DNA from: Actinobaculum massiliense
Lineage (GTDB): Bacteria > Actinomycetota > Actinomycetes > Actinomycetales > Actinomycetaceae
Direction of reading: 5' to 3'
DNA length: 64,000 nt
Assembly: GCF_001457435.1 (NCBI RefSeq)
Contig: NZ_LN881717.1
Coordinates: 1,187,339 to 1,251,338 of the forward strand
This document shows positions 899 through 61,548 of the stretch, one piece after another (positions within the stretch are counted from its first letter, which is position 1; every line of letters starts with the position of its first letter). A program made the translations under genes and the position numbers. The notes under the pieces are model-generated. The model was given only the letters and a program-made list of their open reading frames with translations. It searched no databases and had not been told where the DNA came from.

Positions 899-2119
899 AT
901 GCTATTGAAAAGCGGTGAGGCAGAGCACGAAACTCCCCATTCGAAGATTCCGCCGGATTCGCACGGGATAATTCCGCCAGACTTGCAACCGAAGATTCCG
1001 AGCTTTTTGTCGGGCACCTCGAGGCTGGACGACTCGCGTCAGAGACCAACCGCGGATCTGCCCAAACGCGGCTTCGAGGAGCCAATCGCGCAGGAGGTCC
1101 CTGAAAGCGAAGCGGTATCCGTGCCGCCCAGTCTGGCCGCTTGGATCCGTGCACAGAGAGGCGAAATTATCGCGGATCTATCGGGTGAGCTGTGCGAGTG
1201 CTTCGTCTTGCGGATTCGCACCGAGGCGAGCGGCGACGTCGTCGCGAAGATTCCGGGAAAGTTTCGCTATCCGGTCGAGCGGGAACTTCGCGCGCGACCT
1301 TATCTGGAAGGCCTTATCAACGAGAGGCTCGCGCCGCGCGAAGTTTTCGCGGATTCATCGCAGGCGGTGATTGTCTACGACTTTGTGCCGGGCGAGGCAG
1401 CGAGTAAGGCTACGGCGCACCTATCCGCCGAGAAGATTCCGCGAATTTTTCGCCAGGCCGGATACGCGCTCGCGAGATTGCATCAGGCGGCCACGCGTCC
1501 GAGCAATGGATACGAGAAAGCACAGGTGTGCCGAACCCTCGCGCGCATCGCCGAGATCGAAGATTCCGCGTTTTCTACCCTCCGTCGCGAACATTCCGAG
1601 CTTTTGTCGCAAGCCCGCGAGGAGCTCGGCGCATACCAGCCACGCGATCTTCCCTTGGTTCCCAGTCACGGCGATTATCGGGCGGATAACTGGATTGTCG
1701 GCGAGGGCGGGGAGTTGCGAGTGATCGACTTCGGCCGCTTCGGTTTCCGCCCGGCATTAGCTGACTTTATGCCACTCGCACGCTCCGAGTGGCCAAAGAA
1801 CTCCCTGCTCAGGGACGTATTTTTAGAGGGTTACGCGAGTGGTGGTGCTGGCCATGGCACAATTGGCGGAATTATCGCTGAGGGCCGCGGCGGCTGGTGG
1901 AGGGTGTCCAATATCTGCGATGTTCTAGGGAATCTGTGGTTCGAGGTTCGCGGAGCCAGCGCGCGGCTACAAGCCGAAGACTCCGATAAAAGAACCGCGG
2001 AAAGATCGAGCGAAGCCACCAGGCAAGCCCACCCGCACGCGCAAGCCGATCTGCAGTTAGACGCGCAAGCCGAGCTACAGGCCGGATTTACCGCACTCGC
2101 CCGAGCGCTAGGATTTTAG
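899..2119 (+). CDS. Aminoglycoside phosphotransferase-family kinase
   Basis: A 406-residue protein with a degenerate, low-complexity first 90 residues and then a kinase-like fold. HGDYRADNW (about 260-268) is the catalytic loop of the APH/choline kinase family and VIDFGR (about 277-282) the metal-binding segment. The substrate is unknown; actinobacterial relatives act on small molecules or sugars and resistance should not be assumed. The start is placed at ATG 899 after GAGGG rather than at ATG 860, which overlaps the tRNA promoter area. The gene holds the densest run of the dispersed repeat (about ten degenerate copies), including a 24-base array at 943-1014. The Cof gene follows 26 bases downstream, probably in one operon. 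Confidence 0.75.
   Translation: MLLKSGEAEHETPHSKIPPDSHGIIPPDLQPKIPSFLSGTSRLDDSRQRPTADLPKRGFEEPIAQEVPESEAVSVPPSLAAWIRAQRGEIIADLSGELCECFVLRIRTEASGDVVAKIPGKFRYPVERELRARPYLEGLINERLAPREVFADSSQAVIVYDFVPGEAASKATAHLSAEKIPRIFRQAGYALARLHQAATRPSNGYEKAQVCRTLARIAEIEDSAFSTLRREHSELLSQAREELGAYQPRDLPLVPSHGDYRADNWIVGEGGELRVIDFGRFGFRPALADFMPLARSEWPKNSLLRDVFLEGYASGGAGHGTIGGIIAEGRGGWWRVSNICDVLGNLWFEVRGASARLQAEDSDKRTAERSSEATRQAHPHAQADLQLDAQAELQAGFTALARALGF
943..1014 (+). repeat. 24-bp tandem array of the dispersed repeat, x3, inside a CDS
   Basis: Units begin at 943 (GAAGATTCCGCC), 967 (GATAATTCCGCC) and 991 (GAAGATTCCGAG), exactly 24 bases apart. In the phosphotransferase frame they encode KIPPDSHG, IIPPDLQP and KIPSFLSG. 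The frame differs from that used by the same unit in the sialidase at 15279, where it reads DNSA.VA. Further degenerate copies in this gene start near 1246, 1432, 1559 and 1589 (forward) and 1341, 1865 and 1993 (reverse). Confidence 0.7.
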
Positions 2120-2145: not shown

Positions 2146-3075
2146 ATGCCGGACGTCTCGCAAAAAATTCGCGGAATTATCGATCGCCGGGGGCTGCCCG
2201 AGGTGGGGCCGGAGCTTATGATCCTCCTGGATCTCGACGGCACGGTCCTCCCGCCCGACGGCTACATTCGCCCGCGCGTGGCAGATGCAATTCACGCGCA
2301 TATCCGCGCCGGTAGCCGGGTAGTGATCGCCACCGGCCGCGGGCGGGTATCTGCGCTCAACGTCGTCGAGATGTTGCGCATACGCAACGCGGTAATGATT
2401 TGCTCGAACGGCAACGAAACCGTGCTGACCGGGCGCGCGAGCATTAACGGGATCACCGGCGTTCCCTACGAGTCGTTGACCGACGACGGACGGCCCGTCA
2501 CCATGCGCATCACGAACGTGTCGACGATCGACGAAGAGGACCTCGCCAATGCGCTTGTCACCATGAAGGCAGCATTTCCGCGCGCGTTCTTCGCCGTCGA
2601 GCCGGTGAGCGGCGAGCGCTACCTGGCCGACGATTTCCCCACCGGGATCCTCCATCCCCAGCGCGGAGAGTACGTAGAATTCGCGGATTTATTCGTCGAT
2701 GACTGCGTGCGCCTCATTATGGTCCAGCCTGGCTTGCCCGCCACCGAGCTGCAGCGGCGCCTCGAGCCGCTCAACTTGCCCGGAATTGAGTGGGCGGCGT
2801 CGTCGTCTTCGAATTCCGGGTGGGTCGACGCCGGACGAGCGGGCGTGACAAAAGCGGTGACGGCGGATCTGGTTCGCCGCGAGTTCGATATTTCCGCGAA
2901 TTCGACGGTTGCGATCGGCGACGGGCATAACGACATCGGCATGATCCGGTGGGCTCACCTCGGGATTGCGATGGGTCAGGCAAATCCGTACGTCCAGCAG
3001 CAGGCCGATGCCACAACCGATTCGGTCTGGGATGACGGACTGGCCACCGTGCTTGAGGCATTGCTGGATCGATAG
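2146..3075 (+). CDS. Cof-type HAD-superfamily phosphatase
   Basis: A 309-residue soluble enzyme with all four HAD motifs: DLDGTVL (about 28-34; nucleophile and acid/base Asp), ATGRG (about 65), a conserved Lys in the VTKAV segment (about 230) and GDGHNDIGMI (about 258-267). The large C2 cap is typical of the Cof/YidA group, which dephosphorylates sugar phosphates and other small metabolites; the substrate cannot be told from sequence. ATG 2146 has a strong AGGAAGG site. Codons about 8-12 (RGII) coincide with an exact copy of the dispersed repeat core in reverse orientation (2171-2182), and its stop codon lies inside a repeat palindrome. Confidence 0.85.
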   Translation: MPDVSQKIRGIIDRRGLPEVGPELMILLDLDGTVLPPDGYIRPRVADAIHAHIRAGSRVVIATGRGRVSALNVVEMLRIRNAVMICSNGNETVLTGRASINGITGVPYESLTDDGRPVTMRITNVSTIDEEDLANALVTMKAAFPRAFFAVEPVSGERYLADDFPTGILHPQRGEYVEFADLFVDDCVRLIMVQPGLPATELQRRLEPLNLPGIEWAASSSSNSGWVDAGRAGVTKAVTADLVRREFDISANSTVAIGDGHNDIGMIRWAHLGIAMGQANPYVQQQADATTDSVWDDGLATVLEALLDR

Positions 3076-3166
3076 TTCCGCGCAACTTTCGCGGAACTAT
3101 CGGAACTGCCGAAAACGCGGAATTATCGAAACAGCGGAATTATCGAAACCGCGGAACTATCGAGAA
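3070..3166. repeat. Repeat palindrome plus 17-bp tandem array
   Basis: CGATAGTTCCGCG (3070-3082) and CGCGGAACTATCG (3090-3102) form a perfect 13-base inverted repeat with a 7-base loop, overlapping the Cof stop codon. Then three direct 17-base units follow at 3111, 3128 and 3145 (GAAAACGCGGAATTATC, GAAACAGCGGAATTATC, GAAACCGCGGAACTATC). The palindrome could act as a weak terminator for the Cof operon, but no T-run follows. Confidence 0.85.
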
Positions 3167-5338: not shown

Positions 5339-6640
<1,302 letters not shown>

Positions 6641-15264: not shown

Positions 15265-16581
15265 ATGACTGCCTCACCCGATAAGTCCGTCAATGTTGCC
15301 GGCGATAATTCCGCGGAAGTTGCGAGCGATAATTCCGCGGGAGTTGCGCTCGCGGCGAGTGCTTCGCGCGACTACCGCATTCCCGCGCTTTTCGTTGCCG
15401 ACGGCGCCCTGACCTTGCTCGCGGACGAGCGGCCGCACCCAATTCCCGGCGAGGGTTGGTTAGCGAATGGCGGGGCAATGGCGGACGATCTTCCCAACCC
15501 CAATCGCATCGTTTACGCGATCTATCGGGATGGCGCATGGAGCGAGCCGCGCCCGCTTGGCGGTGACCCGGAAGTGCGTTCGGATGCGTGCGTGGGAGCT
15601 GACGCAGACGGGATTACCCTTGCATACGGTTCCTCAACCGAGGTCGGGTACTTCGGATCGCGTTTTTCCGGTCCCCGCATCCACCCCTACATTGCCTACG
15701 GGCGCGACCTCGAAACTCTGGAGCATCGCGGCGTCGATTGCCTCTACGAAGAATTCAAATGTGACGGAATGTTCGCCACCTCCGGTTCTACGGTTGTATT
15801 CGACGGCGTCGCGCTCTTGCCGTATGTCGTCAAAAGCAAAAGGGGCGCCGAGATCCGCGTGGTTCACGCCCGGGCGGGGGAAATCATCGCCGTAAGCGAG
15901 CCGATTCGGATCGAAAACCCCGGCGAAGATTCCGCTTTTTCTACCTCCGATAATTCCGCGAAAGTTGCGAGCGCTAATTCCGCGCAAGTGCAACTCGATG
16001 AAACGACCCTTGCGGTGGCAAACGGGAAGGTCTACGCGAACTTCCGGTTGCAGGGCCGCGGTGGACGCTGGGTCAGTGAGTCCGATGACGGTCTGCACTG
16101 GGCCACCCCGCACCCACTTGATCTTCCAGATCCGGGCTGCAATGCAAAATTGCTTGCTCTCGATGGAGGGCTTTTGCTGATTCACCCGCATACGCGCGGC
16201 CTGCGACCTGCTGAGCCGGAGGCCGCCAGCGTCGGGTTGGATGATTCCGCCGTCGCAGAAGCGAGTGAAGGAAACGCGGAGGGGTCGACCCCGTCTTCCG
16301 CAAGCTTCGACCAAACCGTAACCGGGGGGAGCGCCCTCCTGGAAAACCAGCCGGTCACAAATTCCCCGCTCCTGGGCGCGCGGGAGAGCGGAGCCATCGT
16401 GGATTACGAGGAGAACGTTCGGTACCGCTTCTCCGACGGAGAATTCGGGTACTCGGACGCTGCCGTGTTGGACGACGCTGTCGCCGCGAATCTCGGTTTC
16501 GGCGAGCCAATGATTGCCGTCGCCTACGAGCGGGCACACGGGATAAACGTCGAGTTTCTGCCGCTCTCGGCGCTTAGGTAA
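15265..16581 (+). CDS. Cytosolic exo-sialidase-like protein (BNR/Asp-box fold)
   Basis: A 438-residue protein without signal peptide. YRIPAL (about 37-42) is the RIP motif with the first catalytic Arg; SESDDGLHWATP (about 271-282) is an Asp-box, and further Arg, Glu and Tyr positions fit a six-bladed GH33-type propeller. It would release sialic acid from oligosaccharides taken into the cell and feed the nan genes that follow. Two in-frame repeat arrays interrupt it: residues 6-29 (DKSVNVAG, DNSAEVAS, DNSAGVAL) and about 221-244 (EDSAFSTS, DNSAKVAS, ANSAQVQL). Both look like inserted linkers outside the propeller core. Residues about 325-370 are another low-complexity insert. Confidence 0.75.
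   Translation: MTASPDKSVNVAGDNSAEVASDNSAGVALAASASRDYRIPALFVADGALTLLADERPHPIPGEGWLANGGAMADDLPNPNRIVYAIYRDGAWSEPRPLGGDPEVRSDACVGADADGITLAYGSSTEVGYFGSRFSGPRIHPYIAYGRDLETLEHRGVDCLYEEFKCDGMFATSGSTVVFDGVALLPYVVKSKRGAEIRVVHARAGEIIAVSEPIRIENPGEDSAFSTSDNSAKVASANSAQVQLDETTLAVANGKVYANFRLQGRGGRWVSESDDGLHWATPHPLDLPDPGCNAKLLALDGGLLLIHPHTRGLRPAEPEAASVGLDDSAVAEASEGNAEGSTPSSASFDQTVTGGSALLENQPVTNSPLLGARESGAIVDYEENVRYRFSDGEFGYSDAAVLDDAVAANLGFGEPMIAVAYERAHGINVEFLPLSALR
15279..15350 (+). repeat. 24-bp tandem array x3 at sialidase N-terminus
   Basis: Units start at 15279, 15303 and 15327, exactly 24 bases apart. The last two carry the exact core CGATAATTCCGCG followed by GAAGTTGCG or GAGTTGCG; the first is diverged (CGATAAGTCCGTC, AATGTTGCC). 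Each encodes 8 residues. Confidence 0.9.
15924..15995 (+). repeat. 24-bp tandem array x3 inside sialidase
   Basis: Units start at 15924 (CGAAGATTCCGCT, TTTTCTACC), 15948 (CGATAATTCCGCG, AAAGTTGCG) and 15972 (CGCTAATTCCGCG, CAAGTGCAAC), exactly 24 bases apart. The two tail types of the family occur side by side here. Confidence 0.9.
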
Positions 16582-16644: not shown

Positions 16645-16703
16645 CGCAACTTTCGCGGAATGATCGCTTGAGCCGGACGCGCAACTTTCGCGGAATGATC
16701 GCT
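16645..16703 (-). repeat. Two repeat units, 35-bp period, after nagB
   Basis: CGCAACTTTCGCGGAATGATCG occurs at 16645 and again at 16680, each followed by CTTG.GCCG. The two lie between the terminator and the nagB stop codon. Confidence 0.85.
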
Positions 16704-26752: not shown

Positions 26753-26767
26753 GTTCCTCCGCCCTCC

Positions 26768-26825
26768 CGATGATTCCGCGAATGTTGCGGGGCGGGTGCG
26801 GGGCGATTTTTCCGCGAATGTTGCG
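26768..26825 (+). repeat. Two repeat units, 36-bp period, intergenic
   Basis: CGATGATTCCGCG plus AATGTTGCG at 26768 and CGATTTTTCCGCG plus AATGTTGCG at 26804. These are among the few copies in the glycan island, placed between the terminator and the next promoter. Confidence 0.8.
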
Positions 26826-29510: not shown

Positions 29511-32500
29511 ATGATGCAACTGGGTAGCAACGTGTCCGACGAATTCTACGAGCCCTACGCGGGGGCGGTGTTGCCTCCTCGCTCGTGGCCGGGGTCGGAA
29601 GAGCGCTTCCTCGATCTGAACGGCGAATGGAGTTTCTGCTACTACCCAGCCGATCCGGATCCCCTACTCAATCCTTCGCGCCCGGCTCCGCGACCCATTC
29701 CGGAGGGTGAAACGGACTCCATGCGCGTTCCCTCCCACTGGGTGCTTCCTGCCGGAAAATTCGGCGCTCCGGCCTATACGAACGTCAACTTTCCTTTCGC
29801 CATCACCCCGCCGCTTCCTCCCGATTCCAACCCGACCGGCGATTACTGGCGAACCGTTACCGTGCCAGAAGAATGGCTTGTTGCCGGTTCTACCCGCTTG
29901 CGGCTCGACGGCGTTGAGTCGGCGGCGCGAATTTGGATCAACGGGGTGTGGGCCGGGTTTACAACGGGTTCGCGAATGCCTCGCGAATTCGAGATTCGCG
30001 AGTTGCTTCACGCGGGCGAAAACGAGGTCTTCATCCGGGTCAACCAGTTCTCTCGCGGCACCTACGTGGAAGACCAGGACCAATGGTGGTTACCGGGAAT
30101 CTTCCGAGATGTGACGCTGCGTCACCTGGAGCCAGGCGAAATCGAGGATGTGTGGGTCAGTACCGATTTTGACCCGAGCACCGGCGAGGGGAACATCCGT
30201 GTTGAGGCACTGACCCTTCAGACCGGGGAGCTTTCTGTGGGCGCTGCTTCTGCCAGCACGGTTTCTGCTGGGGTGCTTCCAGCCGCGGCCGGTAGCGCCG
30301 ACGAAAACGCGGAATCATCGCCGCGAGGGGAGGAGGAATTCCGGGTGCGAATTCCTGAGCTAGCGTTCACCGCTCCCTTGCGCGTAGCTAGCGAAGATTC
30401 CGCGCAAATTGCGCCCGGCCGGGCGCGGTACGTGTGCGACTGGACGGGCGTGGGAGCGGTGGAGCCGTGGGATTGCGATACGCCTCGACGCTACGAGGTA
30501 ATCGTGGAAAACCGAGATAGTCAGCGCCGCCTCCGCAGCGGCTTCCGGCGCGTCGAAATCATCGACGGGCAACTTCTAGCCAATGGACTTCCCCTCAAGG
30601 TTATTGGTGTCAATAGGCATGAGGTGAGAGTGGACGCCGGCCGGGTTTTCGACGAGGAATTTTCGCGGAATGATCTGCGGGCGATGAAAGCGTTCAATAT
30701 CAACTCCATTCGCACGGCTCACTACCCGCCCCACCCGAAGCTTCTCGATCTCGCGGATGAAATGGGTTTTTGGGTGATGCTCGAATGCGACGTGGAGACC
30801 CACGGGTTCCAGTACTCCGGGTCCTCCGAATGGGCCGGTAATCCCTCGGATGATCCGGCTTGGCGCACTGCTTTCCTCGACCGGGCGCGGCGAACCTTTG
30901 AACGAGACAAGAACCATCCCAGCATCTTTAGCTGGTCGCTCGGAAACGAATCGGGGACCGGGGAGAATCTGGCGGCGATGTCTGCTTGGATCCACGCGCG
31001 TGATCCGCGGGCAATCGTTCATTACGAGTCCGATCACGACCACGCTTACACCGATATTTACGCGCGTATGTACGCCACTTACGAAGAGGTGGAAGCGGTG
31101 TTGGACGGTGCGCCCGAAGATCCGGTGGCGGTGCCTTCCCATTTAGCGGGGAAGGTCGACGCCGATGCGCGGCGCCGACTGCGCGCCGCACCTTATTTGC
31201 TCTGCGAGTACCTGCATGCCATGGGAACCGGGCCGGGAGGAGCCGATGGCTATGCCCGACTCTTCCACCATCGGCGATCCATGGGTGGCTACCTGTGGGA
31301 GTGGCGCGATCACGGACTGTGGAAAGTTGATGAAGATGGGCGGCGAACGATCGCCTACGGCGGAGATTTCGGTGAGAAAATCCACGACGGAAACTTCGTC
31401 ACTGACGGTCTGCTCGGCTCACTCGGCGAGGTAGATTCCGGCCTGATTAACTGGGCGACGGTTATGGCCCCCATTCAAATACGGAGTTCGGGCGCCGATA
31501 ACTCCGGCGTCACCCTCGTCAACCAGTGGTCGCGTAACCGTTGCGAGGGTTTGGCTTTGCGCTGGACCCTCCAGTCGCTTGGCCCACGAGGGAGCGCGGA
31601 GGGTGGCGAGGCAACCGGGGTTGTTTCCATTCCTGCGTTCGACGGCGAAGTTCGACTGGAACTTCCCGAGCTGGCGCAGGCGTGCGAACGAGCAGAAGAG
31701 CGGTGGCCCGGCACGCGCTGGGCGGTGCGTTACTGCGTGGTTGCCAGCGATGGCTACGGGCTGGAATTTGCCAGCAATGGAGAGCGTGAACGCGGCATTT
31801 CCATTCATCCGATCGCCGGTTACCACCCGGTTCCCACTGGCTTTACTGACGGGTGTGGCCAACGCGTGGTGACCCACGCCTTTACCGAGCTGGATCCGGT
31901 AGAAAAGCGTTCCGCGGAAATCCGGGGTGGGGAGGAAAAAAGCTTCCTGGTTGACGAACGTGGCATGCTTCGCAGGGTTGGGAAAATCGATCTGCGGGGA
32001 ATTGATCTGACGGCTTTCCGCGCGCCCACCGATAATGATCGCGGGCACTCGCAAGCTGATTACTGGGGCCTCGACGAGGTCGGAGAAATTGGGGAGGGCC
32101 ACGATACGCGAGGCCCGTCCAACGCCGACCACTGGCAGAGCGCGAATGTTTCTATGCTCACGCGCCAGTTGCGGGCCCTCGAGCGCCAAAGTGACGGGGT
32201 GGTTCGTGTGCGCGAAAGGTGGGGCGCACCGTCCTTCCAGTACGGAGCGGACGTAGAGATTACCTATCGGCCGGTGCGCGAAGGAGTGCTGGTTACCTAC
32301 GCAGTGCGGCTGGATGGACAGTGGCCCGAGGTGCTGGGCCGGCTAGGGATGCGCCTAGAGATTCCGGACCCCGAATGGAAGATCGACTGGGTCGGTTCCG
32401 GGCCCGGACTTGCCTATCCCGATATGGCGCACGCTAGTTGGCCGGGGGTTTTTAGCGCGCAAAGCGTGGAGGCGATGTGGGAGCGCCACGAAAAGCCGCA

Positions 32501-39209: not shown

Positions 39210-42200
39210 GTGGCAAGAATGAGGAAAATAGTAGGGGGTCTTACCGCGTCGGCCCTAGCTTTAGGGGGACTGGTGACCTCGGTGGTCGCGCCCGCGCGCG
39301 CTGACGACACCGCGCCATTCCACCCGCAGATGCTGTGGGCGACGTCGGAAGAGTTAGAAGGGGAGCCGGGGGACAATGGGCCAATCTCGGCTCTGGTCGA
39401 CGATGATTCGGGCAAACCTCTGAGCCAGGTCACGTACTGGCACACGAAATGGAAGGGTGGGGAAGATCCGTTCCCGCATGCGTTGACTTTCAAGAATCCC
39501 ACGCCGGAGGTTCCGATTTGCGGCGTGCAATTCACCGCTCGGCCGAGCTATGCCGATGTTTTAGGTAATAGCAATGCTCCGAGTAAGTATCAGCTTTTCA
39601 ATACCGAGGAAGATCCCGGAAACCCCGCAGAAGATGCGGATAGCATGCCGGCATGGCGGGAAAAGGTTGCCAGCGGCCAAGGTGCCGAGCTGTACGGTAA
39701 GCCGATTGCCAGTGGCGCGCTGAAGGCCACCAACGATCCGCAGACGATTTCGTTTGACGCCACGAACTCACCCGTTTTTACCCTCATCGGCTTGCAGGCA
39801 ATTGATGCCTCGAAGAAGCCGATGAGCGCATCAGATCTGCGGCTGGTTCCCTGCAAGCCCAAGCCCACCGAGCCACAAGAGGGCTCGGGCGCTAATTTGC
39901 TGGCAGATTTCCATCTCGATGTGCTTCCGTTTGGGGAACCTGGTAAGCCGGTGAGCTTCGATAGCACCACGCACACGTACGCGGCGACGGCCTACTACCA
40001 CGCGGATGAGATCTCCGCCCAGGTGAAGGTTCTGCCGGGTGCGAGTGCCACGATCAACGGGCGAAGCCCTGATCGCAATGGCCGCGTCGCGGGAATAACC
40101 CTTGACGAGGGTCTCAATGTGATTGAGGTTGAGGTCAAGCGTGGCGTTCAGAAGGCGACGTACGTAGCGAACGTAACCAAGGTTTCTAACGATTTCCGCG
40201 GAAACGTCCTCATCGGCGCCACCGCGAAGGCAAACGGTGCAAGTCCGGAACAGAATGCCGCGCTTACTGACGAGGACATGGCGACGTCGTGGACGGCGGA
40301 CCACATTGTTACCTCGAATGAGTGGAACGACCAGGTGACGGGCATTCAACTCAGCTTGGATAACCCGCGCTGGGTGCACCGAATTAGCGCCTGGGGCTGG
40401 CCGACCCTCAACGGCGGTGCCGGATGGCACGCCGGTAATTCCGTTTCTATCGCCGTCCAGTCCGACGACGGAGCTAACTGGACCACCATCGCCGAGCACG
40501 CCTCGTTGACGCGAGATGCTGGCGGCCTGTGGTATTGGGATTTCAACTGGTATCACAAGGCGAAGAACATCCGTATCTGGCTGAATAACAAGACGGACGA
40601 CCCGCAGGTGCCGAGCCAAATCGTCAATTCGGTGGACTTCAACGAGATCGAGGTGTGGGGCCTGGAGGCCGGCCAAGAGCCAAAAACTCCAGAGCCGAAT
40701 CCGCAGGGCGATCGCTTCACGGCATTCAACCCGGGCGAGTCCAAGTGGGGCGTCAACCGCGCGCAAGCTCTGGCGCTCCAGTACGGGATCGTCTTGCCCG
40801 CGTGGATTCCTTCGGAAGGATTCGCGCGCGGCGCGTTCAACGACGTCGAACAGCAACTCACCGGCGGAGCTTTCCCGATGTTCTACGACCAGCCGCTTTT
40901 CAACCGGACGGTAATGAACCAGCTCGGTGAGGGTACGCCGTGGGCGCTCGCGAAGGCACCCTTCGGCCAGAACGGTATGCGTGAAGCGGGTGAACCGCGC
41001 GACTTCATGACGGGAGATATGAAGGCGTATGCCAAGAACCTCATCGATATCCAGTTTGGCGATGAACGTAATTACTCGCCTGATGAGGTGAAGGGATTCA
41101 CTCAGTGGTTCAAGTGGGCGCGGGAGAATGTGCCCGGAGCGATCAACCACGCTAACTGGTTCGATGATCCGACCTGGAAGCGCCTCGATCGGCTCCAGCC
41201 GTTCGTGCAGGACGCGCAACCGGATCTGCTCAGCTGGGATACCTACTACTACGGAATGAACGGCGGTCCCAAGCCTAAGGATGTTGTGAACTCGCTTTAC
41301 GCTAACGGCACCTGGCAGGCACAGAGGCAAGCTGGATTGGCCGGAATTACCGGCGATGGCAAGCAGCCGATCCTCTACGGCCAGTACCTTGATTACAACT
41401 GGGATGCCAACGTTTCTGAGTCTCAGAAGGCGGTTGTTCCCGCGCTGGGATTGGCTTCTGGCCAGAAGTGGTTCGGCCTGTTCCGTATGGAGTACAACGG
41501 CTATGACCGCTCCTCGATCATCGACCAGGACGGCGCCCCGACTCGTTCCTTCTACGAGTTCACGAAGATTTTCCAAGATATTCGTGGAGTTGGTGAGTAC
41601 CTGGTTGCCCTCAATAATCAGTATGTCGCCCTGGTTCCCGGAAACTACTCGGACCGCGGCGTATCTCCCGACCTCTCGATCTATCACAAGATGGGTAACT
41701 TCGGCGTCGGCGATGAAGCTAAGGCGGCTAACGAAAAGGTTGGTCTGCGAAACGTTACCGTCGAAAACAAGGGAACCGTCAATAACGGCATGCCCGGCGA
41801 CGTGGTGATTGGTTACTTCGACACCCTGCCGGGATTGGAGAAGGCAAAGGCCGAGGAAATCTTTGGCAAGTTCGCGGAGGAGAACCCGCGCGGCTTCCTG
41901 GTAACAAACGCCCTGACCGGCGATACGAACTATCCGTCGTATCTGCTCAATCCGCGTACTGATAACGGTTCTTACCGCGAGACGGCGCAGAACGTCACCC
42001 TCGATGTGAAGCGTCCGTTCAAAAATGCCAAGCTCATGATGGTGGATCCGGAGACCTACGAGCCGGTTTCCATTGAGCCCGAGGGTGCCGGAGATGAGTT
42101 CTCCGTGACGCTTCCGAATATCGGAGGCGGCCAGTACCGCCTCGTTTACTGGGTACAGGAAGCGGAAGCGGCGCAACCCGACCCGGAGCCGACGGTTGAC

Positions 42201-43052
42201 CCGACGGTCGACCCGACGGTTGAGCCGACGGTCGACCCGACGGTCGACCCGACGGTTGACCCGACGGTTGACCCGACGACGAAGCCTGCGCCGGATCCCG
42301 AACCCGAGCCTGCCCCTGAACCGCAGCCTGACCCGGCACCCTCGGACGAGGCGAAGAGCTGGCCGGCATCTGATCCGAACGGTATTCACTACTCGGATAA
42401 CTGGGGCCAGGGCGCGGCGGATCGGGTATACAACTACGGCAATAGCGGCGATGAATTCCTCGTTGGTGACTGGGACGGAGATGGACGCGAAACGCCAATG
42501 GTGCGTCGCGGCAACCGCTTCCTCGGCACCAACGACGTCAAGGGTATGGCTCAGTTTGAGTTTGCCTACGGAAACGCAAATGATCAGGTTCTGGTAGGCG
42601 ACTGGGATGGCGACGGGAAAGACGCTATTGCCGTGGTTCGCGCAAACAAGGTTTACGTGAAGAACACCTTGCGCAGCGGTGTGGCCGATCGTGTTGTTGC
42701 TTATGGAAACGCCACCGATACGTTAGTTGCCGGCAACTTCGATGCTGATGCGGCTACCGAACTGGTTGCGGTACGCGGTAACTCCCTCTTTATCCAAACC
42801 GATTTGGGTGATTCGAAGGCGGCCAAGGTTATTGCCTACGGCCAGGCTGGCGACGAACTGCTCGTTGGTGACTGGGATGGAGACGGCGTTGATGGTGTCG
42901 CGGTCCACCGCGGAAACGGCTTCCTGCTCCGCAATGCGCTGAGCTCTGGCGTCGCCGAGCACACCTACACCTACGGAAACGCGGACGACGCGGCGCTGAT
43001 TGGTGACTGGAACGGCGATGGGGTTGATACTCCGGCCGTGGACAGGAGGTAA
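39210..43052 (+). CDS. Large secreted multidomain glycosidase
   Basis: A 1280-residue exported protein. Order: signal peptide (cleaved after APARA, about 30); N-terminal beta domain (to about 225); cadherin-like sandwich (about 240-325); discoidin/F5-8C-type carbohydrate-binding domain (about 330-485; TSWTADHIVTSNEWNDQVTG); a TIM-barrel-like catalytic region (about 495-800) with IDIQFGDERNYSPDEV, HANWFDDPTWKRLDRL and DLLSWDTYYYG; a beta domain; a PTVD linker (about 990-1050); and five FG-GAP-like repeats of VGDWDGDG (about 1085-1280). No LPXTG anchor. I cannot assign the catalytic part to a GH family. GTG 39210 after GGGAGG is preferred to upstream starts. It probably cuts host glycans outside the cell. 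Confidence 0.75.
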   Translation: MARMRKIVGGLTASALALGGLVTSVVAPARADDTAPFHPQMLWATSEELEGEPGDNGPISALVDDDSGKPLSQVTYWHTKWKGGEDPFPHALTFKNPTPEVPICGVQFTARPSYADVLGNSNAPSKYQLFNTEEDPGNPAEDADSMPAWREKVASGQGAELYGKPIASGALKATNDPQTISFDATNSPVFTLIGLQAIDASKKPMSASDLRLVPCKPKPTEPQEGSGANLLADFHLDVLPFGEPGKPVSFDSTTHTYAATAYYHADEISAQVKVLPGASATINGRSPDRNGRVAGITLDEGLNVIEVEVKRGVQKATYVANVTKVSNDFRGNVLIGATAKANGASPEQNAALTDEDMATSWTADHIVTSNEWNDQVTGIQLSLDNPRWVHRISAWGWPTLNGGAGWHAGNSVSIAVQSDDGANWTTIAEHASLTRDAGGLWYWDFNWYHKAKNIRIWLNNKTDDPQVPSQIVNSVDFNEIEVWGLEAGQEPKTPEPNPQGDRFTAFNPGESKWGVNRAQALALQYGIVLPAWIPSEGFARGAFNDVEQQLTGGAFPMFYDQPLFNRTVMNQLGEGTPWALAKAPFGQNGMREAGEPRDFMTGDMKAYAKNLIDIQFGDERNYSPDEVKGFTQWFKWARENVPGAINHANWFDDPTWKRLDRLQPFVQDAQPDLLSWDTYYYGMNGGPKPKDVVNSLYANGTWQAQRQAGLAGITGDGKQPILYGQYLDYNWDANVSESQKAVVPALGLASGQKWFGLFRMEYNGYDRSSIIDQDGAPTRSFYEFTKIFQDIRGVGEYLVALNNQYVALVPGNYSDRGVSPDLSIYHKMGNFGVGDEAKAANEKVGLRNVTVENKGTVNNGMPGDVVIGYFDTLPGLEKAKAEEIFGKFAEENPRGFLVTNALTGDTNYPSYLLNPRTDNGSYRETAQNVTLDVKRPFKNAKLMMVDPETYEPVSIEPEGAGDEFSVTLPNIGGGQYRLVYWVQEAEAAQPDPEPTVDPTVDPTVEPTVDPTVDPTVDPTVDPTTKPAPDPEPEPAPEPQPDPAPSDEAKSWPASDPNGIHYSDNWGQGAADRVYNYGNSGDEFLVGDWDGDGRETPMVRRGNRFLGTNDVKGMAQFEFAYGNANDQVLVGDWDGDGKDAIAVVRANKVYVKNTLRSGVADRVVAYGNATDTLVAGNFDADAATELVAVRGNSLFIQTDLGDSKAAKVIAYGQAGDELLVGDWDGDGVDGVAVHRGNGFLLRNALSSGVAEHTYTYGNADDAALIGDWNGDGVDTPAVDRR
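42189..42272 (+). repeat. 12-bp tandem repeat x7 encoding PTVD linker
   Basis: Seven 12-base units of CCGACGGTTGAC with T/C and C/G variation encode PTVD or PTVE; a partial eighth (CCGACGACGAAG) follows. A flexible spacer that may vary in length between strains. Confidence 0.95.
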
Positions 43053-49293: not shown

Positions 49294-49457
49294 GGAATGA
49301 ATAGTTCGGCGAAGTCACTGAAAAAAGTTGTAAAAAATCGCCAAGAGTGCGAAAATTGAACGGATCGCGTAAGTGCGCGGTTGTGTCAGAGTCGACACTC
49401 AGGCACCTTTCACTCGGATCGTCCGGCACGTACCTGCCGGTGAAGGGACCATTAATA

Positions 49458-50582
49458 ATGGCAACAGTAACCTTTGATCACGCCAGCCGTATCTACCCCG
49501 GGTCGGAAACCCCCGCGGTCAACGAGCTTAACCTGGAAATTGCGGACGGAGAATTCCTCGTCCTGGTTGGCCCGTCCGGATGCGGAAAGTCCACCAGCTT
49601 GCGTATGCTCGCCGGATTGGAAGATGTAAATTCTGGTCGCATTTTCATTGGTGATCGCGATGTTACCGACGTCGCCCCCAAGGATCGCGATATTGCGATG
49701 GTGTTCCAGAACTACGCGCTGTACCCGCATATGACGGTGGCGGAAAACATGGGATTTGCGCTGAAGATCGCTAAGCGTCCCAAGGAAGAAATTGATGAGC
49801 GGGTCAAGGAAGCCGCCCGCATCCTCGATTTGGAGCCTTACTTAGACCGCAAGCCGAAGGCTCTCTCGGGTGGTCAGCGCCAGCGCGTGGCAATGGGTCG
49901 TGCGATTGTGCGTAAGCCGCACGTCTTCCTCATGGATGAACCGCTCTCGAACCTGGACGCCAAGCTCCGCGTACAGACCCGTACGCAGATCGCTACCCTG
50001 CAGCGTTCGCTGGGAACGACGACGCTGTACGTTACGCACGATCAGACCGAGGCGCTGACGATGGGTGATCGCATCGCCGTCCTCAATTTCGGCGTGCTGC
50101 AACAGGTGGGCACCCCGGAGGAACTCTACTCTCGCCCCGGAAACGCTTTCGTAGCCGGATTCATTGGCTCGCCCGCTATGAACCTGGGAATTTTCAAGGT
50201 CGACGGCGAAGTGGCCAAGAACGGCAACGGGCATATTCGGCTCCCGCGCAACGTTATCGACGCCCTCACGCCGGAGGACAACGGCGAGGTCTTTATCGGT
50301 ATCCGCCCCGAGGCCTTCCGCGGCCTAACCAACGAAGAGTCTGCAGACGCTCTGCCGATCGAGGTGGAGATGGTGGAGAACCTCGGTTCGGATAACTACG
50401 TCTACGGCCACGTGATTGGCGAATCCGAGCATAAGTTCGGTTCGGGCGACGATTCTTCGCAGATGGTGGTGCGCGTTGCTCCGATGATGGCTCCCGAGAT
50501 CGGCTCGACGGTCTGGGCTCTGCCGGATCCGGCGCAGATGCACTTCTTCCACGCCGGTGGAGACCAGAAGCGCATCGACTAA
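49458..50582 (+). CDS. msmK: MsmK/UgpC-type sugar ABC ATPase
   Basis: A 374-residue ATPase: Walker [10 protein letters not shown]-loop [10 protein letters not shown], signature LSGGQRQR, Walker [14 protein letters not shown]-loop VTHDQTEA, then a C-terminal OB/TOBE regulatory domain (FIGIRPEAF). This type serves several carbohydrate importers and probably energises the permease pair at 34565-36468, which lacks its own ATPase. ATG 49458 matches the family start; GAAGGGA is about 11 bases upstream. Confidence 0.92.
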
Positions 50583-54104: not shown

Positions 54105-57100
54105 CTAGTCCTCCAGCTCTGCCAACTTCTTTTGAATCCGCTTGACGGAAACTTTGCCCTTCGTACCCAGCTGCTGGGCGAAAAGTGAAACCCGGAGCTC
54201 TTCGATCATCCAGCGCGCTTCGGTGAGGATTCGCGCCGCGCGGGGCGAGTAGGTGCCATATTCGGCTTCCGCCCGCGCCTGCTCCACGGCCTCGCTGGCC
54301 CCTTGAATCTGCCAGGCGAGCGAATCGTCCCCGGAGGGATTGATTTTCGCTTTTTCAATTCGAAGCTGGCCGGCTTTCAGGTAGCGCGGCAAATCCCAGA
54401 AACGCTCAGCGGGAGTGGCCCGCACGAAGTCGGCTGGCATTAGGGCATCCACATGCGCGCGCTCGTCGGTGACGGTGGCGAGCATCGAAACCGAGGTATT
54501 CTCGCGAATCGCCAGCTCAAGTTGCGCCCATTCTTCCGCCGCTTTCGCCGTCCCCTGCGCCAAAAGGTAGACCTCATCCTCAAACTCATCGCGTGCCCAT
54601 GCGCGAAGTTGCGCGAAATCTTCGCCCGAACGCAGTTCGGCGGGGGAAGTATCGTTCGAATTCCCCCAGCGCTCGGCGAGGTTCCGCGCCGCCGCCCACT
54701 GCAGATCCGCCACCAGCGCGGCGGTGGATCGCGCGGGCGAGGCGGCCAGCTTGAGCGCCAGATCTCCGTCCCAGCGCGAGGTTATGCGCGCCTCGGGGAG
54801 CGCGAGCGAACGGGTGAGTAGTTGCACGACGCCGGAGCTATGCGCCCGCACTTGTTCACCCGGAGATGCCAAGACGTCCAAAAATACTTCCTCGCCGCGC
54901 ACCACCAAAGCGGGATAGGCGCGAACCACCGAGCCGTGCGGACCAGAGGTCTCCATCACCGCGGGGATCATTCCGTCAGTTAAATCATTCGGCCAATCGT
55001 TTAGCGCCTCGCTGCCGCGGCTAACCAGCCCGGCGGCCACCGCAAAATTCGCGGAATTATCGGTGAGGGAAAAAGCGGCGGAATGATCGGAGCGGGAAGA
55101 ATTTGCGGAGTGATCGGAAGAGGTGGAAACTCGCGGATTCTTCGCATCTCGGGAACGCCCGCCGGCTTCGAGTTTGCGCCGCGCCTCATCGAGCGCCTGC
55201 GCCACCGCGCCGGCCACCACCGACTCCACCGCTTTCTTCGTGGACGGAGCTAGATCGTGCTTGAGGCGCTCAAGCGAATTCGACTCGTCGAGCACCGCCC
55301 CGCGCTCGGAGCGAATGCGGAAATGCATTTGCAAATAATCCGGCAGATCGAGCTCGTCCCAAGCGGCGTCGTTGATCTGGAAACCGCGCAAGCGCTCAAC
55401 CGCGCCGGTGAAAGCCTCGCGGAAGGTCGGGGCGCCGGGGCGCCCGCCGGCCACCTCGCTCCACTCAGGAAGTAACGCGCGTAGCTCACGGGCCACATCG
55501 GGGGCGGGAACCAGTTGCCGGCGCACCCGCTTGGGGAGTGCGCGGATGGTGCCAATTACCAGGTCATCGAGCATTCCGGGCACCAGCCAATCGAAGCCGG
55601 CCTCGGTGACCTGCGGCAGTATCGAGACCGGGATATCGAGGGTAATGCCGTCGCTATGAGAATTCGGCGCGAAACTGTATTCGGCGTCGAATGTGAGTTC
55701 GCCTTGGCGCAACTGGCTGGGGAAGTCCTCCGCGCCGGCGCTACGCCCACCCAGCAGAAACTCCTGGGTGAAATCGAGCAGTTTGCCGTGGCGTTGGCGT
55801 TCGTCTTTCCACCAGGAATTGAAATGCGCCGCGGAAACAATCGAATCGGGAATGCGCTCGTCATAAAACATTGCCAGGGCGCGTTCGTCCGCCACCAGCC
55901 CGCGCACACGCAGCTTTGATTCGGTGTCCGCCGCCTCGGCCAGTGCCTGCCGGTTTCGCTCCATGAATTTCTGATGGCTGTGCCATTCGCCGTTCACCAG
56001 CGCGTGTTCAATGAACATTTCGCGCGCCAGCGCATTCGCACCCGGCGTGCCGGTGGAGGAAAGTAGTACCGGGCGGTCGGCCACCAGGGTGAGGCCATAG
56101 AGCGTCACCTTTTCCTTGCACATGGCGGCGCCGTTTTTAATGCTCCAATACGGATCTGAATACGAGCGTTTCACCAGCGAGCTCGCCAGCGGCTCAATCC
56201 ACTCGGGTTTGATCGCCGCCACGGTACGGGCAAAAAGTCGCGAAGTTTCCACCAGTTCGGCGGCCATCACCCAGGCCGGGGTGCGCCGGTGCAGGCCCGA
56301 GCCGGGCCAAATCACGAAATGCGTGCCGCGGGCGCCCTCGTAATCGCGGGTGCGCTCGCGGTAGTTGCCAATATTCGAGAGCAGACCCACCAGGAGCGAG
56401 CGGTGAATCGCGCCGGCTTCGGGAGTGTCCGTGCTGCGGCCGAACTCGCGGCAAGCCTCCGCCACCGCCGCGGCGTTCGGTTCGCCTCCCGGATGCCCGC
56501 CACCCTTGCGCTCTTCAATCGCGCGGCGCACATCCGCATGCGAGGGAATCGGCAGGCGGCGCACGCGCAAACGTAGCGGCCGCGCCATTTCCTCGAGCTG
56601 GTGCACCACGTCTAACCACTCGCGGAAGCGCAGGTAGTTGAGGAATTCGGCGCGCATAAGCCGCCGGAACGCCGTCCCGGACAGCTCGCGTTGCTGGGTG
56701 CGTAGGTAGCGCCAAATGGTGAGGTAGGTGAGGAAGTCCGACGACGCCGCATTAAACCTGGCATGGTACTGATCGGCCTGCTGGCGCTTCTCGGTAGGCC
56801 GCTCGCGCACATCTTGAACTGAGAGTGCGGCCACCAAAACGAGCACTTCCGAGGCGCAACCGTTTTTATCCGCTTCGATCAGCATGCGGCCCAGGCGTGG
56901 GTCAATAGGAAGCCGGGCGAGTTGGCGGCCGATATGCGTGAGGCGAGGAGCGGGTCCACCGGTGATTGCCCCGATTTCTTCCAGTAGTTGCACTCCGGCC
57001 CGCACCGCGCGCTGTTCGGGCGGGTCAATAAACGGAAACTCTTCGACCGATCCGAGCCCGAGGGAGAGCATTTGCAAAATGACGCTTGCCAAAGACGTGC

Positions 57101-58487
57101 GCTGGATTTCCGGCTGGGTGAACTCCGGGCGCGCCAGGAAATCCTCCTCGGAGTAGAGGCGAATGGTGATGCCGTCTTGCACGCGGCCCGATCGGCCCGA
57201 ACGCTGATTCGCCGAGGCCTGCGAAATTGGTTCAATGGGCAGGCGCTGCACCTTGGTTTTATTCGAGTAACGGGAAATGCGCGCGGTACCCGGATCAATC
57301 ACGTATTTAATTCGCGGCACCGTAATCGATGTTTCCGCGATATTTGTGGCCAGGATAATCCGCGGGAGTTGCCCGGGATGGAAAATGCGGTTCTGCTCCT
57401 GGTTGCTCATGCGGCCAAACAGCGGCAAAACTTCAATTGCGCCGGGCAGCGAGCTCTTCTCACCCGGGCCAACGAATTTTGGCCCGAGCTCGTCTTGGAA
57501 AGCGTGCAGCGTATCGCGAATTTCGCCCTCACCGGAGAGGAAGACGAGGATATCGCCGGCGCCTTCACTCATGAGTTCCTCGGCCGCTTCGATAATTCCG
57601 TCGATTTGATCCTTTGCCGATGCCCGGCCGGGCGTGCGCGGGGAGGGATTGGCCGTCGCCCGCATAACTTTCGCGGAATTATCGCCAGTGCGCGAGGGGG
57701 TGGTAGAAAACGCGGAATTATCGCCAGCGCCGGATGCATCGACGGCGTTGTCGTCCAGGGGACGATAACGAATCTCCACCGGATACGTGCGCCCGGAGAC
57801 CTCGATAATGGGTGCGCTGGCGCCCTTGCGGCCGCGATAGCTGTGCTCGCCAAAATGCTTCGCGAAGCGCTCGGTGTCGATAGTCGCGGAGGTGATGATG
57901 ATCTTCAAATCCGGGCGCTGAGGGAGCAGGCGCGCCAAATATCCGAGGATAAAGTCGATATTCAGCGAGCGCTCGTGCGCTTCGTCAATAATTAGCGTGT
58001 CATAGCGCAAAAGTTGCGGGTCGGACTGGATTTCGTTCAGTAAAATACCGTCGGTCATCAGCTTGACCAGGGTGTTTTGCGAAACGTCCTCGGTGAATCG
58101 CACCTGGAAGCCAATCGTTTCGCCAACCGACTGGCCCAGCTCGTGGGCAATGCGCTCGGCCACCGACCGGGCGGCAATGCGCCGCGGCTGGGTGTGCCCA
58201 ATCAGCTTTTCGATTCCGCGCCCCAGCTCCAGGCAGATTTTCGGTAGCTGCGTGGTTTTTCCGGAGCCGGTCTCGCCGGCCACGATGACCACCTGGTTTT
58301 CCGCAATGGCTTTCTTGATATCCTCCCGCCGCGCGGAAACCGGGAGCTCCTCGGGGTAGGTAATCGCCGGGAGCGAAGCCCGCCGCTGCGCGATCTGCTT
58401 TTCCGAAAACGCGCGTGGCGCGTGACGGCGCGGGCGCCTGCCGCGCTTCTTCGACTGGTGGTGCGAGTTTTCCTTGTTCATACCCAT
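54105..58487 (-). CDS. hrpA: ATP-dependent RNA helicase HrpA
   Basis: A 1460-residue DEAH-box helicase. Walker A GETGSGKTTQ (about 70-79), DEAHERSLNIDF (about 165), SATIDTERF, the motif V-VI block NIAETSITVP and QRSGRSGRV, the HA2/OB domains and the long DUF3418 C-terminal region of HrpA. Two linkers are built from the dispersed repeat: residues about 255-272 (two units, 39-base period) and about 1115-1146 (four units), the second between the helicase part and the DUF3418 region. The first lies inside the second RecA lobe area, so it must be a surface loop. Start ATG 58487 or 58481; no clear ribosome site. Confidence 0.92.
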   Translation of the reverse strand: MGMNKENSHHQSKKRGRRPRRHAPRAFSEKQIAQRRASLPAITYPEELPVSARREDIKKAIAENQVVIVAGETGSGKTTQLPKICLELGRGIEKLIGHTQPRRIAARSVAERIAHELGQSVGETIGFQVRFTEDVSQNTLVKLMTDGILLNEIQSDPQLLRYDTLIIDEAHERSLNIDFILGYLARLLPQRPDLKIIITSATIDTERFAKHFGEHSYRGRKGASAPIIEVSGRTYPVEIRYRPLDDNAVDASGAGDNSAFSTTPSRTGDNSAKVMRATANPSPRTPGRASAKDQIDGIIEAAEELMSEGAGDILVFLSGEGEIRDTLHAFQDELGPKFVGPGEKSSLPGAIEVLPLFGRMSNQEQNRIFHPGQLPRIILATNIAETSITVPRIKYVIDPGTARISRYSNKTKVQRLPIEPISQASANQRSGRSGRVQDGITIRLYSEEDFLARPEFTQPEIQRTSLASVILQMLSLGLGSVEEFPFIDPPEQRAVRAGVQLLEEIGAITGGPAPRLTHIGRQLARLPIDPRLGRMLIEADKNGCASEVLVLVAALSVQDVRERPTEKRQQADQYHARFNAASSDFLTYLTIWRYLRTQQRELSGTAFRRLMRAEFLNYLRFREWLDVVHQLEEMARPLRLRVRRLPIPSHADVRRAIEERKGGGHPGGEPNAAAVAEACREFGRSTDTPEAGAIHRSLLVGLLSNIGNYRERTRDYEGARGTHFVIWPGSGLHRRTPAWVMAAELVETSRLFARTVAAIKPEWIEPLASSLVKRSYSDPYWSIKNGAAMCKEKVTLYGLTLVADRPVLLSSTGTPGANALAREMFIEHALVNGEWHSHQKFMERNRQALAEAADTESKLRVRGLVADERALAMFYDERIPDSIVSAAHFNSWWKDERQRHGKLLDFTQEFLLGGRSAGAEDFPSQLRQGELTFDAEYSFAPNSHSDGITLDIPVSILPQVTEAGFDWLVPGMLDDLVIGTIRALPKRVRRQLVPAPDVARELRALLPEWSEVAGGRPGAPTFREAFTGAVERLRGFQINDAAWDELDLPDYLQMHFRIRSERGAVLDESNSLERLKHDLAPSTKKAVESVVAGAVAQALDEARRKLEAGGRSRDAKNPRVSTSSDHSANSSRSDHSAAFSLTDNSANFAVAAGLVSRGSEALNDWPNDLTDGMIPAVMETSGPHGSVVRAYPALVVRGEEVFLDVLASPGEQVRAHSSGVVQLLTRSLALPEARITSRWDGDLALKLAASPARSTAALVADLQWAAARNLAERWGNSNDTSPAELRSGEDFAQLRAWARDEFEDEVYLLAQGTAKAAEEWAQLELAIRENTSVSMLATVTDERAHVDALMPADFVRATPAERFWDLPRYLKAGQLRIEKAKINPSGDDSLAWQIQGASEAVEQARAEAEYGTYSPRAARILTEARWMIEELRVSLFAQQLGTKGKVSVKRIQKKLAELED
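55051..55144 (-). repeat. 27-bp tandem repeat units inside hrpA
   Basis: Cores at 55051 (GCGGAATTATCG), 55078 (GCGGAATGATCG) and 55105 (GCGGAGTGATCG) are exactly 27 bases apart and encode SDHSA/TDNSA-type 9-residue units on the minus strand. A fourth diverged core (GCGGATTCTTCG, 55133-55144) is 28 bases on and is therefore read in another frame (KNPRVST). Confidence 0.9.
57673..57723 (-). repeat. Two exact repeat cores, 39-bp period, inside hrpA
   Basis: GCGGAATTATCG at 57673-57684 and 57712-57723. On the coding strand they read GDNSAFSTTP and GDNSAKVM, one with each tail type of the family. Confidence 0.9.
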
Positions 58488-60726: not shown

Positions 60727-61548
60727 CTAATAAACGGCCACCAGCCCGCGCGAGGTTTCGATAACGTCGATCTCGGCGTCAAAGATTCGTGAAAGGCGCT
60801 CCGGGTGCATAATTTCTACCGGCGTTCCCATCTCGCACACTTTCCCCTCGCGTAGCGCGATGATTTGATCGGCGTAGCGGGCGGCGAAGTTGATGTCGTG
60901 AAGCACCACCACAATGGTGCGGCCGAGGGTGTCCGCGGCGCGGCGCAAATGCTTCATCATCTGGATTGAGCGGGAAATATCCAGGTTATTGAGCGGCTCA
61001 TCCAAAAGCACAAAGTCAGTTTCCTGCGCGAGCACCATCGCCACATAGGCGCGCTGGCGCTGCCCGCCGGAGAGCTGGTCCAAATAGCGATGCTCCAGAT
61101 CTTCCAGGCCGAGGAAATCAATGTACTTGGAGATAATTCGTTCGTCGTCGGCCGTCAGGCGCCCGTGCGAATACGGGAAGCGCCCGAAACCGACCAGCTG
61201 CCGCACCGTCAGGCGGGTGACGAAGTGGTTTTCCTGGCGCAAAATTGCCACGGTTTTGGCGAGTTTATTGCTCTTGGTATGGCGCACGTCCCTGCCGGCG
61301 ACCGCGATTTTTCCTTCGTCGAAATCTAGCAGGCGGCCGACCATCGTCAGGAGCGTCGACTTCCCGGCGCCGTTGGGGCCCACCAGCGCGGTGATGCCGC
61401 CGCGAGGAATGTTGAGGGTGATGGGGCCGATGACGACGTCGGAGGTGTAGCGCTTGACGGCTTCCCGCACGTCGATTCCTCCGCCCGCAACTTTCGCGGA
61501 ATTATCGCCGGAGACGGCGGGGGTTTCAAAAGCTGGCGAATTAGTCAC
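60727..61548 (-). CDS. Iron-siderophore ABC importer, ATPase
   Basis: A 273-residue ATPase of the FepC/YclP type: Walker A GPNGAGKS, signature LSGGQRQR, Walker B FVLLDEPLNNLD, H-loop VLHDINFAARYAD. The first 25 residues are an extension containing GDNSAKVAGG, encoded by an exact repeat core (61496-61507). The start overlaps the stop of the permease gene by one base. Confidence 0.92.
   Translation of the reverse strand: MTNSPAFETPAVSGDNSAKVAGGGIDVREAVKRYTSDVVIGPITLNIPRGGITALVGPNGAGKSTLLTMVGRLLDFDEGKIAVAGRDVRHTKSNKLAKTVAILRQENHFVTRLTVRQLVGFGRFPYSHGRLTADDERIISKYIDFLGLEDLEHRYLDQLSGGQRQRAYVAMVLAQETDFVLLDEPLNNLDISRSIQMMKHLRRAADTLGRTIVVVLHDINFAARYADQIIALREGKVCEMGTPVEIMHPERLSRIFDAEIDVIETSRGLVAVY

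Follow-up and report, generated by a model that had tools for sequence, protein, structure and literature searches.

A short sequence unit recurs in a stretch of 64 kb of the Actinobaculum massiliense chromosome (C4:1187339-1251338, hereafter the window), where it is translated in different reading frames in different genes. The locus raises the question of whether such a unit is maintained through the encoded peptides or through the DNA itself, and how its many copies arose. A preliminary description had proposed that the repeat acts or spreads as DNA and that proteins merely tolerate it.

Results

Motif copies in the window

The window contained 80 non-overlapping copies of the motif scoring at least 14 bits, 58 genic and 22 intergenic; Table 1 presents a selection. 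The 12-mer CGATAATTCCGC occurred 14 times (both strands), against 0.02 occurrences expected. The genic copies were read in the DNS frame in 27 cases, GII in 13, IIP in 8, AELS in 7 and RNY in 3. The occurrence of one repeat unit in different frames of different genes was thereby confirmed, on a larger scale than first seen.

Table 1. Selected motif sites in the window, drawn from its 80 copies (window positions).
Position	Strand	Feature	Remark
941..1010	-	three motif copies, 24-bp period, frame IIP, plus-strand APH-domain phosphotransferase gene	reported site
1163..2009	both orientations	eight more copies in the APH-domain gene, frames AELS, IIP, DNS, GII	
2162..2183	+	copy read RGII (QKIRGIID), HAD (Hydrolase_3) phosphatase gene	30.3 bits
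3069..3163	.	five intergenic copies: inverted pair 3069-3103, then direct copies 17 bp apart	
5911..5932	+	copy read LLNSRNYQ, TGT gene	22.9 bits
13947..14281	.	three intergenic copies plus a DNS-frame copy close to the neighbouring gene's 3' end	
15278..15347	-	three copies, 24-bp period, DNS frame, sialidase-like gene	
15923..15992	-	second DNS-frame array, three copies, sialidase-like gene	
16646..16702	+	pair of intergenic copies, spacing 35 bp	
26767..26824	-	pair of intergenic copies, spacing 36 bp	
30300..30677	.	three copies (AELS, DNS, RNY frames), glycosyl hydrolase family 2 gene	
55042..55145	+	four copies spaced by 27-28 bp, DEAH helicase/DUF3418 gene	three in DNS frame, one in IIP
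57326..57347	-	copy read TNIAETSI, DEAH helicase/DUF3418 gene	25.0 bits
57664..57724	+	two DNS-frame copies, DEAH helicase/DUF3418 gene	
61487..61508	+	DNS-frame copy, ABC transporter ATPase gene	

In total, the APH-domain gene carried 11 copies in four frames (5 IIP, 3 AELS, 2 DNS and 1 GII). The peptides of its 24-bp array are SKIPPDSH, GIIPPDLQ and PKIPSFLS; the reading IIPP, originally given for this array, applies literally to one of the three copies, and the other two read KIPP and KIPS. The pattern DNSA.VA was exact in the sialidase-like gene (GDNSAEVA, SDNSAGVA, SDNSAKVA) and in the ABC ATPase (GDNSAKVA), but in the helicase gene, for which it had also been claimed, only DNSA was retained and the full pattern was not (TDNSANFA, GDNSAKVM, GDNSAFST). 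The reverse reading RGII in the phosphatase was reproduced as described, the motif lying there in the opposite orientation relative to the gene. The sialidase-like gene is so called from a weak BNR_2 match under the Pfam cut-off (26.7 vs 31.4 bits).

A search of the window with Rfam at gathering thresholds returned only an msiK RNA and two tRNAs. An RNA element was rejected as the nature of the motif, as Rfam gave no match at it and genic copies were about equal on both strands. The msiK RNA (49398-49455) lies at the start of an open reading frame for a MalK-type ABC ATPase (49347-50582 as listed), so that the true start is probably located downstream. A 12-bp tandem repeat (CCGACGGTTGAC, 7.5 copies) was observed at 42186-42278 in a long open reading frame with a cadherin-like domain; its match to a PT-repeat was weak and under the cut-off. 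Words of the GACGACGCC/CGACGTCG type were strongly over-represented in both A. massiliense and the sister species, in the zone described below and outside it, perhaps reflecting codon usage.

Distribution in the genome

The A. massiliense genome (2,065,185 bases in four contigs) contained 47 occurrences of the 13-mer CGCGGAATTATCG and none of its reversed control, and 44 of the 47 lay within C4:1108218-1285450. The copies occupy a sharply edged zone of about 180 kb (185 kb as scanned), corresponding to about 9% of the genome, on one side of dnaA. As dnaA, whose 20-kb stretch also contains parS-like TTCACGTGAA words, is located at C4:1087.6-1089.4 kb, the copies span from about 18 to 198 kb on this one side only.

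Three counts were compared with controls. The zone itself served to train the weight matrix, so that the exact-word counts are the unbiased ones. In the 185-kb zone, 442 sites of at least 11 bits were found with the matrix, whereas two Markov shuffles yielded 33 and 27 and reversal of the zone yielded 6; the number of motif sites in the zone is roughly 300-440. With one mismatch allowed to the 12-mer, words numbered 209 in the genome (control 3) and 30 in the sister (control 5). The core word CGGAATNWTCG occurred 225 times in the genome, 168 of them in the 185-kb zone, and 22 times in the sister, with reversed controls of 1 and 9, respectively. Beyond the zone, its 57 occurrences in 1.88 Mb correspond to approximately three times the rate of the sister (22 in 2.2 Mb).

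At a threshold of at least 14 bits, no copies were counted at 1060-1100 kb. From there the number per 10 kb was 10-34 as far as 1210 kb, fell to 5-9 in a dip between 1210 and 1240 kb, rose to 5-22 as far as 1290 kb, and was 0-1 between 1290 and 1400 kb, with a count of 0 immediately beyond either edge of the zone. Values of 0-3 were obtained for native-like DNA beyond about 1400 kb and of 0-6 for other native stretches. When copies within 100 bp were merged, 225 separate places remained, and the head-to-tail arrangement at a single locus that defines a tandem repeat (minisatellite) was not observed. Even spacing of the sites was not found either: they were clumped, with a coefficient of variation of 1.32 compared to 0.76-1.11 in shuffles, and the two dense parts taken alone gave about 1.0-1.1. 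A search for other regional motifs in five 20-kb stretches beyond the zone revealed nothing comparable except the parS-like words by dnaA. Outside the zone, a small cluster was noted at C3:343348-344212, where four copies, each scoring at least 16 bits, share about 0.9 kb.

The zone is native to A. massiliense by its tetranucleotide signature. With motif copies masked, the zone scored 0.703 against the rest of the genome, similar to the value within the rest (0.697), and 0.554 against the sister.

A foreign tetranucleotide signature was observed from about 1289.5 to 1389.5 kb, close to the end of the zone. The segment C4:1288882-1395670 carries phage structural genes, two large serine recombinases, ParB-like genes and restriction genes, with a short hsdM-like open reading frame (231 aa) at the left edge of the foreign-signature DNA and a phage tail gene at 1392.8-1395.7 kb. 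A conjugative element at the zone edge was considered and rejected, as several of the 17 proteins examined from 1288.9 kb on were of phage or restriction type and none was a relaxase.

Sequence and base profile of the motif

The unit is about 22 bp long, with a consensus of roughly GNAAMWWNCGCGGAATNWTCG. Two AT-rich blocks about 11 bp apart are framed by CG steps, approximately CGNAAAAWN-CG-CGGAATNWT-CG, the first block occupying positions -8 to -3 and being followed by CG-CG, the second block (4 to 9) and a terminal CG. The profile was built from 149 zone copies that differ from GCGGAATTATCG at one position or none; 76 were on the plus and 73 on the minus strand, without strand polarity. In this alignment, the flanks outside the 22 bp carried almost zero information, and the conserved unit is not longer than the motif. 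Base preferences were nearly alike in genic and intergenic copies.

Two descriptions fit the symmetry of the motif, an imperfect dyad and a degenerate direct repeat of 11 bp, with mean matches of 5.90 and 6.06 of 11, respectively. The short perfect palindrome characteristic of HIP-type sequences was not present, the mirrored matches amounting only to this imperfect dyad.

Among the 96 one-mismatch variants, positions 7, 0, 6 and 5 accounted for 32, 25, 16 and 8, respectively, compared to just 0-2 per base at the CGs in positions 1-2 and 10-11. Since the variants are piled at few positions and the CGs are spared, a recognition site fits these data better than decaying copies; neutral copy decay would give a more even spread of variants, which a recognition site would not.

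Preference at the DNA or protein level

Genes were called with a simple gene finder written for this analysis, according to which 83.8% of the zone is coding. Of 387 zone copies of at least 13 bits, 254 were genic, 127 intergenic and 6 straddled a gene end, corresponding to 3.7 copies per kb between genes and 1.4 copies per kb in genes. The genic copies were divided into 131 in the same and 123 in the opposite orientation to the gene, and into frames DNS (100), AELS (65), GII (53), IIP (18) and RNY (13), with 5 in the consensus-stop frame.

To separate the two levels, codons were exchanged among synonyms within each of 133 genes, with the proteins fixed, in 40 shuffles. Only 30.8 ± 5.2 copies (maximum 44) were left, compared to 252 observed, so that 88% were removed, and every frame was in excess over the shuffles, from 3.6 to 12.6 fold. 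As the copies are lost although the proteins are unchanged, the preference resides at the DNA level. This points to a motif that is read as DNA, not as protein, by some reader. A protein-level repeat was rejected on the same result, most of the excess being removed by synonymous shuffling.

With both orientations and five open frames in use, the proposal that the repeat acts as DNA and is tolerated by proteins was upheld. A concentration of nearly all genic copies in one frame and orientation, the outcome that would contradict it, was looked for across the whole zone and not found. The accompanying claim that no single frame dominates holds in so far as the frames are mixed, but their use is uneven, with DNS as the largest class. 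Local protein identity to the sister in ungapped windows was 0.573 at motif copies and 0.707 at random positions. The uneven frames and the placement of copies at less conserved positions indicate that proteins filter where copies survive.

Spacing differed between the two settings: neighbours on the same strand within 80 bp were separated by a multiple of three in 33 of 39 genic pairs, compared to 17 of 41 intergenic pairs. No gene-end bias of copies was found in the zone genes. No promoter preference was detected among the intergenic copies, the densities being 4.4 copies per kb in convergent (only 16 such gaps), 3.6 in tandem and 3.0 in divergent gaps; a promoter role was accordingly rejected, density being greatest in the convergent class. 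Copy density showed a weak, non-significant trend with gene conservation (rho -0.20, p 0.08, 82 genes), and zone genes without an orthologue in the sister stretches did not carry copies more frequently (1.18 per kb).

Origin of the copies by comparison with the sister species

The sister stretches compared represent about one third of the sister genome, and "without orthologue" refers to absence from these stretches. Reciprocal-best orthologues in them were available for 82 of 134 zone genes (mean identity 69%), with 126 copies inside. Rickettsia palindromic elements and MITEs are DNA repeats that occur in varying frames inside genes, and they are insertions. The motif differs from them in that its copies are mainly in-place substitutions: 93 of the 126 aligned without gaps, 17 were in insertions of A. 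massiliense, 11 adjoined small gaps and 5 fell in deletions. For randomly chosen positions of these genes, the proportions were 88.9% ungapped, 3.6% in insertions, 5.3% next to small gaps and 2.2% in deletions. Insertions are therefore over-represented among the copies (13.5%), yet they remain a minority, and copies are not, as a rule, insertions relative to relatives as in RPE, MITE or REP elements. The suggestion that the motif spread mainly as an inserted unit was not sustained by this comparison with orthologues.

When 107 ungapped codon-aligned sites were examined (overlapping windows counted), 3 reached the threshold in the sister and 104 fell below it; conversely, 9 sister sites reached the threshold, 3 of them shared. 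A subset of 24 windows differed by one amino acid at most (8 of them by none), and here a single sister site reached the threshold; some of the 24 scored only 14-16 bits. A clear case is the peptide ADDSALFR, identical in both species, with DNA scores of 24.0 bits in A. massiliense and -1.7 bits in the sister. The TNIAETSI copy likewise has the same residues in the sister, where the DNA scores 11.1 bits, and the TGT copy corresponds without gaps to LLNSRAYQ, with a sister DNA score of -1.0 bits. The high proportion of ungapped copies and of sister sites below threshold indicates that the copies arose mainly by substitution.

Similarity between copies hardly depended on distance past 60 bp, and flanks were no more alike than background, which argues, for the most part, against transposition or local copying of the unit. 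Only the arrays of copies within 60 bp of one another look as if they were partly duplicated. A main origin by insertion or transposition was ruled out by the ungapped alignments and the unrelated flanks, and local copying was set aside because similarity barely changes with distance beyond 60 bp.

In the sister, the zone genes are distributed over several separate blocks (C25 on both sides of dnaA, C28, C11 and C17), and each block carries copies in A. massiliense, which is consistent with a pattern following the present chromosome position. Gene order near the origin is strongly rearranged: blocks flanking dnaA on both sides in the sister are on one side in A. massiliense.

Occurrence in other genomes

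The exact 13-mer was present in 19 of 200 family genomes, A. massiliense included; the 18 others carried 1-3 occurrences, 181 carried none, and no genome among the 199 other family members exceeded three. As the genus sample comprised two species only, gain in the A. massiliense lineage is deduced from this rarity rather than from an outgroup tree. The 17-bp pattern AAAACGCGGAATYATCG was compared with 84,980 species genomes, a collection that may omit the A. massiliense genome, and matched 77 stretches with 1-2 matches each, scattered over phyla, which is close to the number estimated by chance (60). No motif-rich genome was found among the 84,980 with this one pattern. No description of the motif was found within the literature library searched; the string CGGAATTATCG occurs in 10 of its papers, and none of five titles among these concerns a repeat.

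Discussion

Mechanisms were considered with reference to excerpts of four articles (PMC3116907, PMC2346458, PMC4390886 and PMC1939737). The most likely reading, to which we assign about an even chance, is that the motif represents recognition sites of a putative DNA-binding protein marking an origin-proximal domain. A candidate sequence-specific protein would decorate this domain in the manner of MatP on matS or of SlmA on its sites. Sites would arise through mutation and be retained by weak selection acting on the total occupancy of the domain rather than on single sites, and short tandem duplications, mostly in frame within genes, would add local arrays. The regional confinement, the native zone, the recognition-like profile, the DNA-level excess, the substitution origin, the strand neutrality and the indifference to promoters support this reading. 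Against it stand the ParB-family and Pfam searches described below, which gave no binding protein, the one-sidedness of the zone, the dip at 1210-1240 kb, the core word still at about three times the sister frequency beyond the zone, a density of one site per 0.4-0.6 kb, far above that of matS, and the scarcity of the exact 13-mer in the 199 other family genomes. More tentatively, and with appreciable doubt, the motif may be a private chromosome-domain code of one lineage: a degenerate 22-bp site, introduced through synonymous and tolerated substitutions about every half kilobase over 180 kb to one side of the origin, and read by an undescribed putative DNA-binding protein.

The motif resembles matS and SlmA sites as short sites strewn over part of a chromosome in both genic and intergenic DNA, and it shares with matS the enrichment in one contiguous chromosome region. 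According to the excerpt of PMC3116907, matS is a 13-bp site with 23 copies in the Ter region, and sites of the matS and SlmA type lie in coding and noncoding DNA with no tie to gene regulation as far as known. The matS consensus given there, GTGACRNYGTCAC, differs from the motif by inspection. Unlike matS, the motif measures about 22 bp, has several hundred degenerate copies, is origin-proximal and one-sided, and was observed in a single species. The one-sided confinement fits none of the motif systems considered.

The main rival, which we regard as unlikely, is a molecular drive linked to uptake or transfer, as for the Haemophilus USS and the Neisseria DUS, in which motif DNA is preferentially taken up or recombined and near-matches are gradually pulled to the motif. 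In USS, a core is accompanied by an AT tract about one turn of the helix away, and the motif likewise has a core and an AT tract at about this distance. Its copies are made by substitution, denser between genes, orientation-neutral and of the order of one per kb, and a ComEC-family protein is present in A. massiliense; ComEC is, however, also present in the sister, which lacks the motif expansion. Iteration in both orientations, under-representation in coding DNA and a comparable density are shared with USS/DUS as far as the excerpt of PMC2346458 describes them. However, the same excerpt gives the USS an apparently random distribution over the H. influenzae genome, whereas three quarters of the motif sites lie in about 9% of the genome and only 57 of 225 core sites, a weak excess, in the other 91%, so that over-representation is not genome-wide; the gene-end bias of the Pasteurellaceae in that excerpt is also absent. 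Such a drive explains the habits of accumulation about as well as domain marking does, but not the confinement. A mutational process driven by repair or methylation, of the kind proposed for HIP1 in cyanobacteria, is quite improbable. Its appeal is that HIP1 is also highly iterated with position-biased one-letter variants (excerpt of PMC4390886), but HIP1 is a fixed 8-bp palindrome associated with methyltransferases, whereas the motif is a degenerate, regional sequence of about 22 bp, and the hsdM-like reading frame near the zone edge is only adjacent.

Import of the zone from an unsampled relative carrying the motif genome-wide has a slim probability. It would account for the sharp edges, the dip and small patches such as that at C3:343-344 kb, and the median identity to the sister, at 64.7 within the zone (n = 136), is slightly but non-significantly below the 67.7 obtained outside it (n = 96; p = 0.23). 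It does not account for the native signature, the masked value equalling that of the rest of the genome, and the 84,980-genome scan with one 17-bp pattern gave no motif-rich source (at most 2 matches in each of 77 stretches); import is thus not supported. Insertion of a small mobile or palindromic element (MITE, RPE or REP-like) into genes is very improbable: the excess of copies in insertions and of same-strand over opposite pairs within 80 bp (80 vs 26) would suit it, but it is contradicted by the ungapped majority, including sites at conserved protein positions, by the unrelated flanks, by a similarity that barely depends on distance past 60 bp, and by a unit not longer than the motif. Selection on the encoded peptide, such as linkers like DNSA or AELS, has a close to negligible chance of being the explanation, since 127 of 387 copies are intergenic and five open frames are in use, even though DNS and AELS together make up 165 of the 254 genic copies and genic same-strand spacings are mostly multiples of three.

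The writer of bacterial iterated motifs, such as uptake sequences and HIP1, is still debated, with selection, drive and mutation all proposed. As the present motif is confined to one zone of one genome and its expansion is absent in a related species, the inside and outside of the zone form a built-in control. The finding of a reader protein would reveal a new way of marking part of a chromosome; failing that, a regional mutational or transfer drive would be equally unexpected.

In the A. massiliense genome, a ParB-family search returned the chromosomal ParB beside dnaA and two members in foreign DNA, and a ParB/Noc-like reader besides these was discounted. No helix-turn-helix or similar DNA-binding domain was found with Pfam in 10 examined of the 49 zone genes without orthologue. 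An ArsR/HTH_20-type regulator, also without orthologue in the sister stretches, is located at C4:1101489-1102076, just outside the left edge of the zone, and is a candidate reader.
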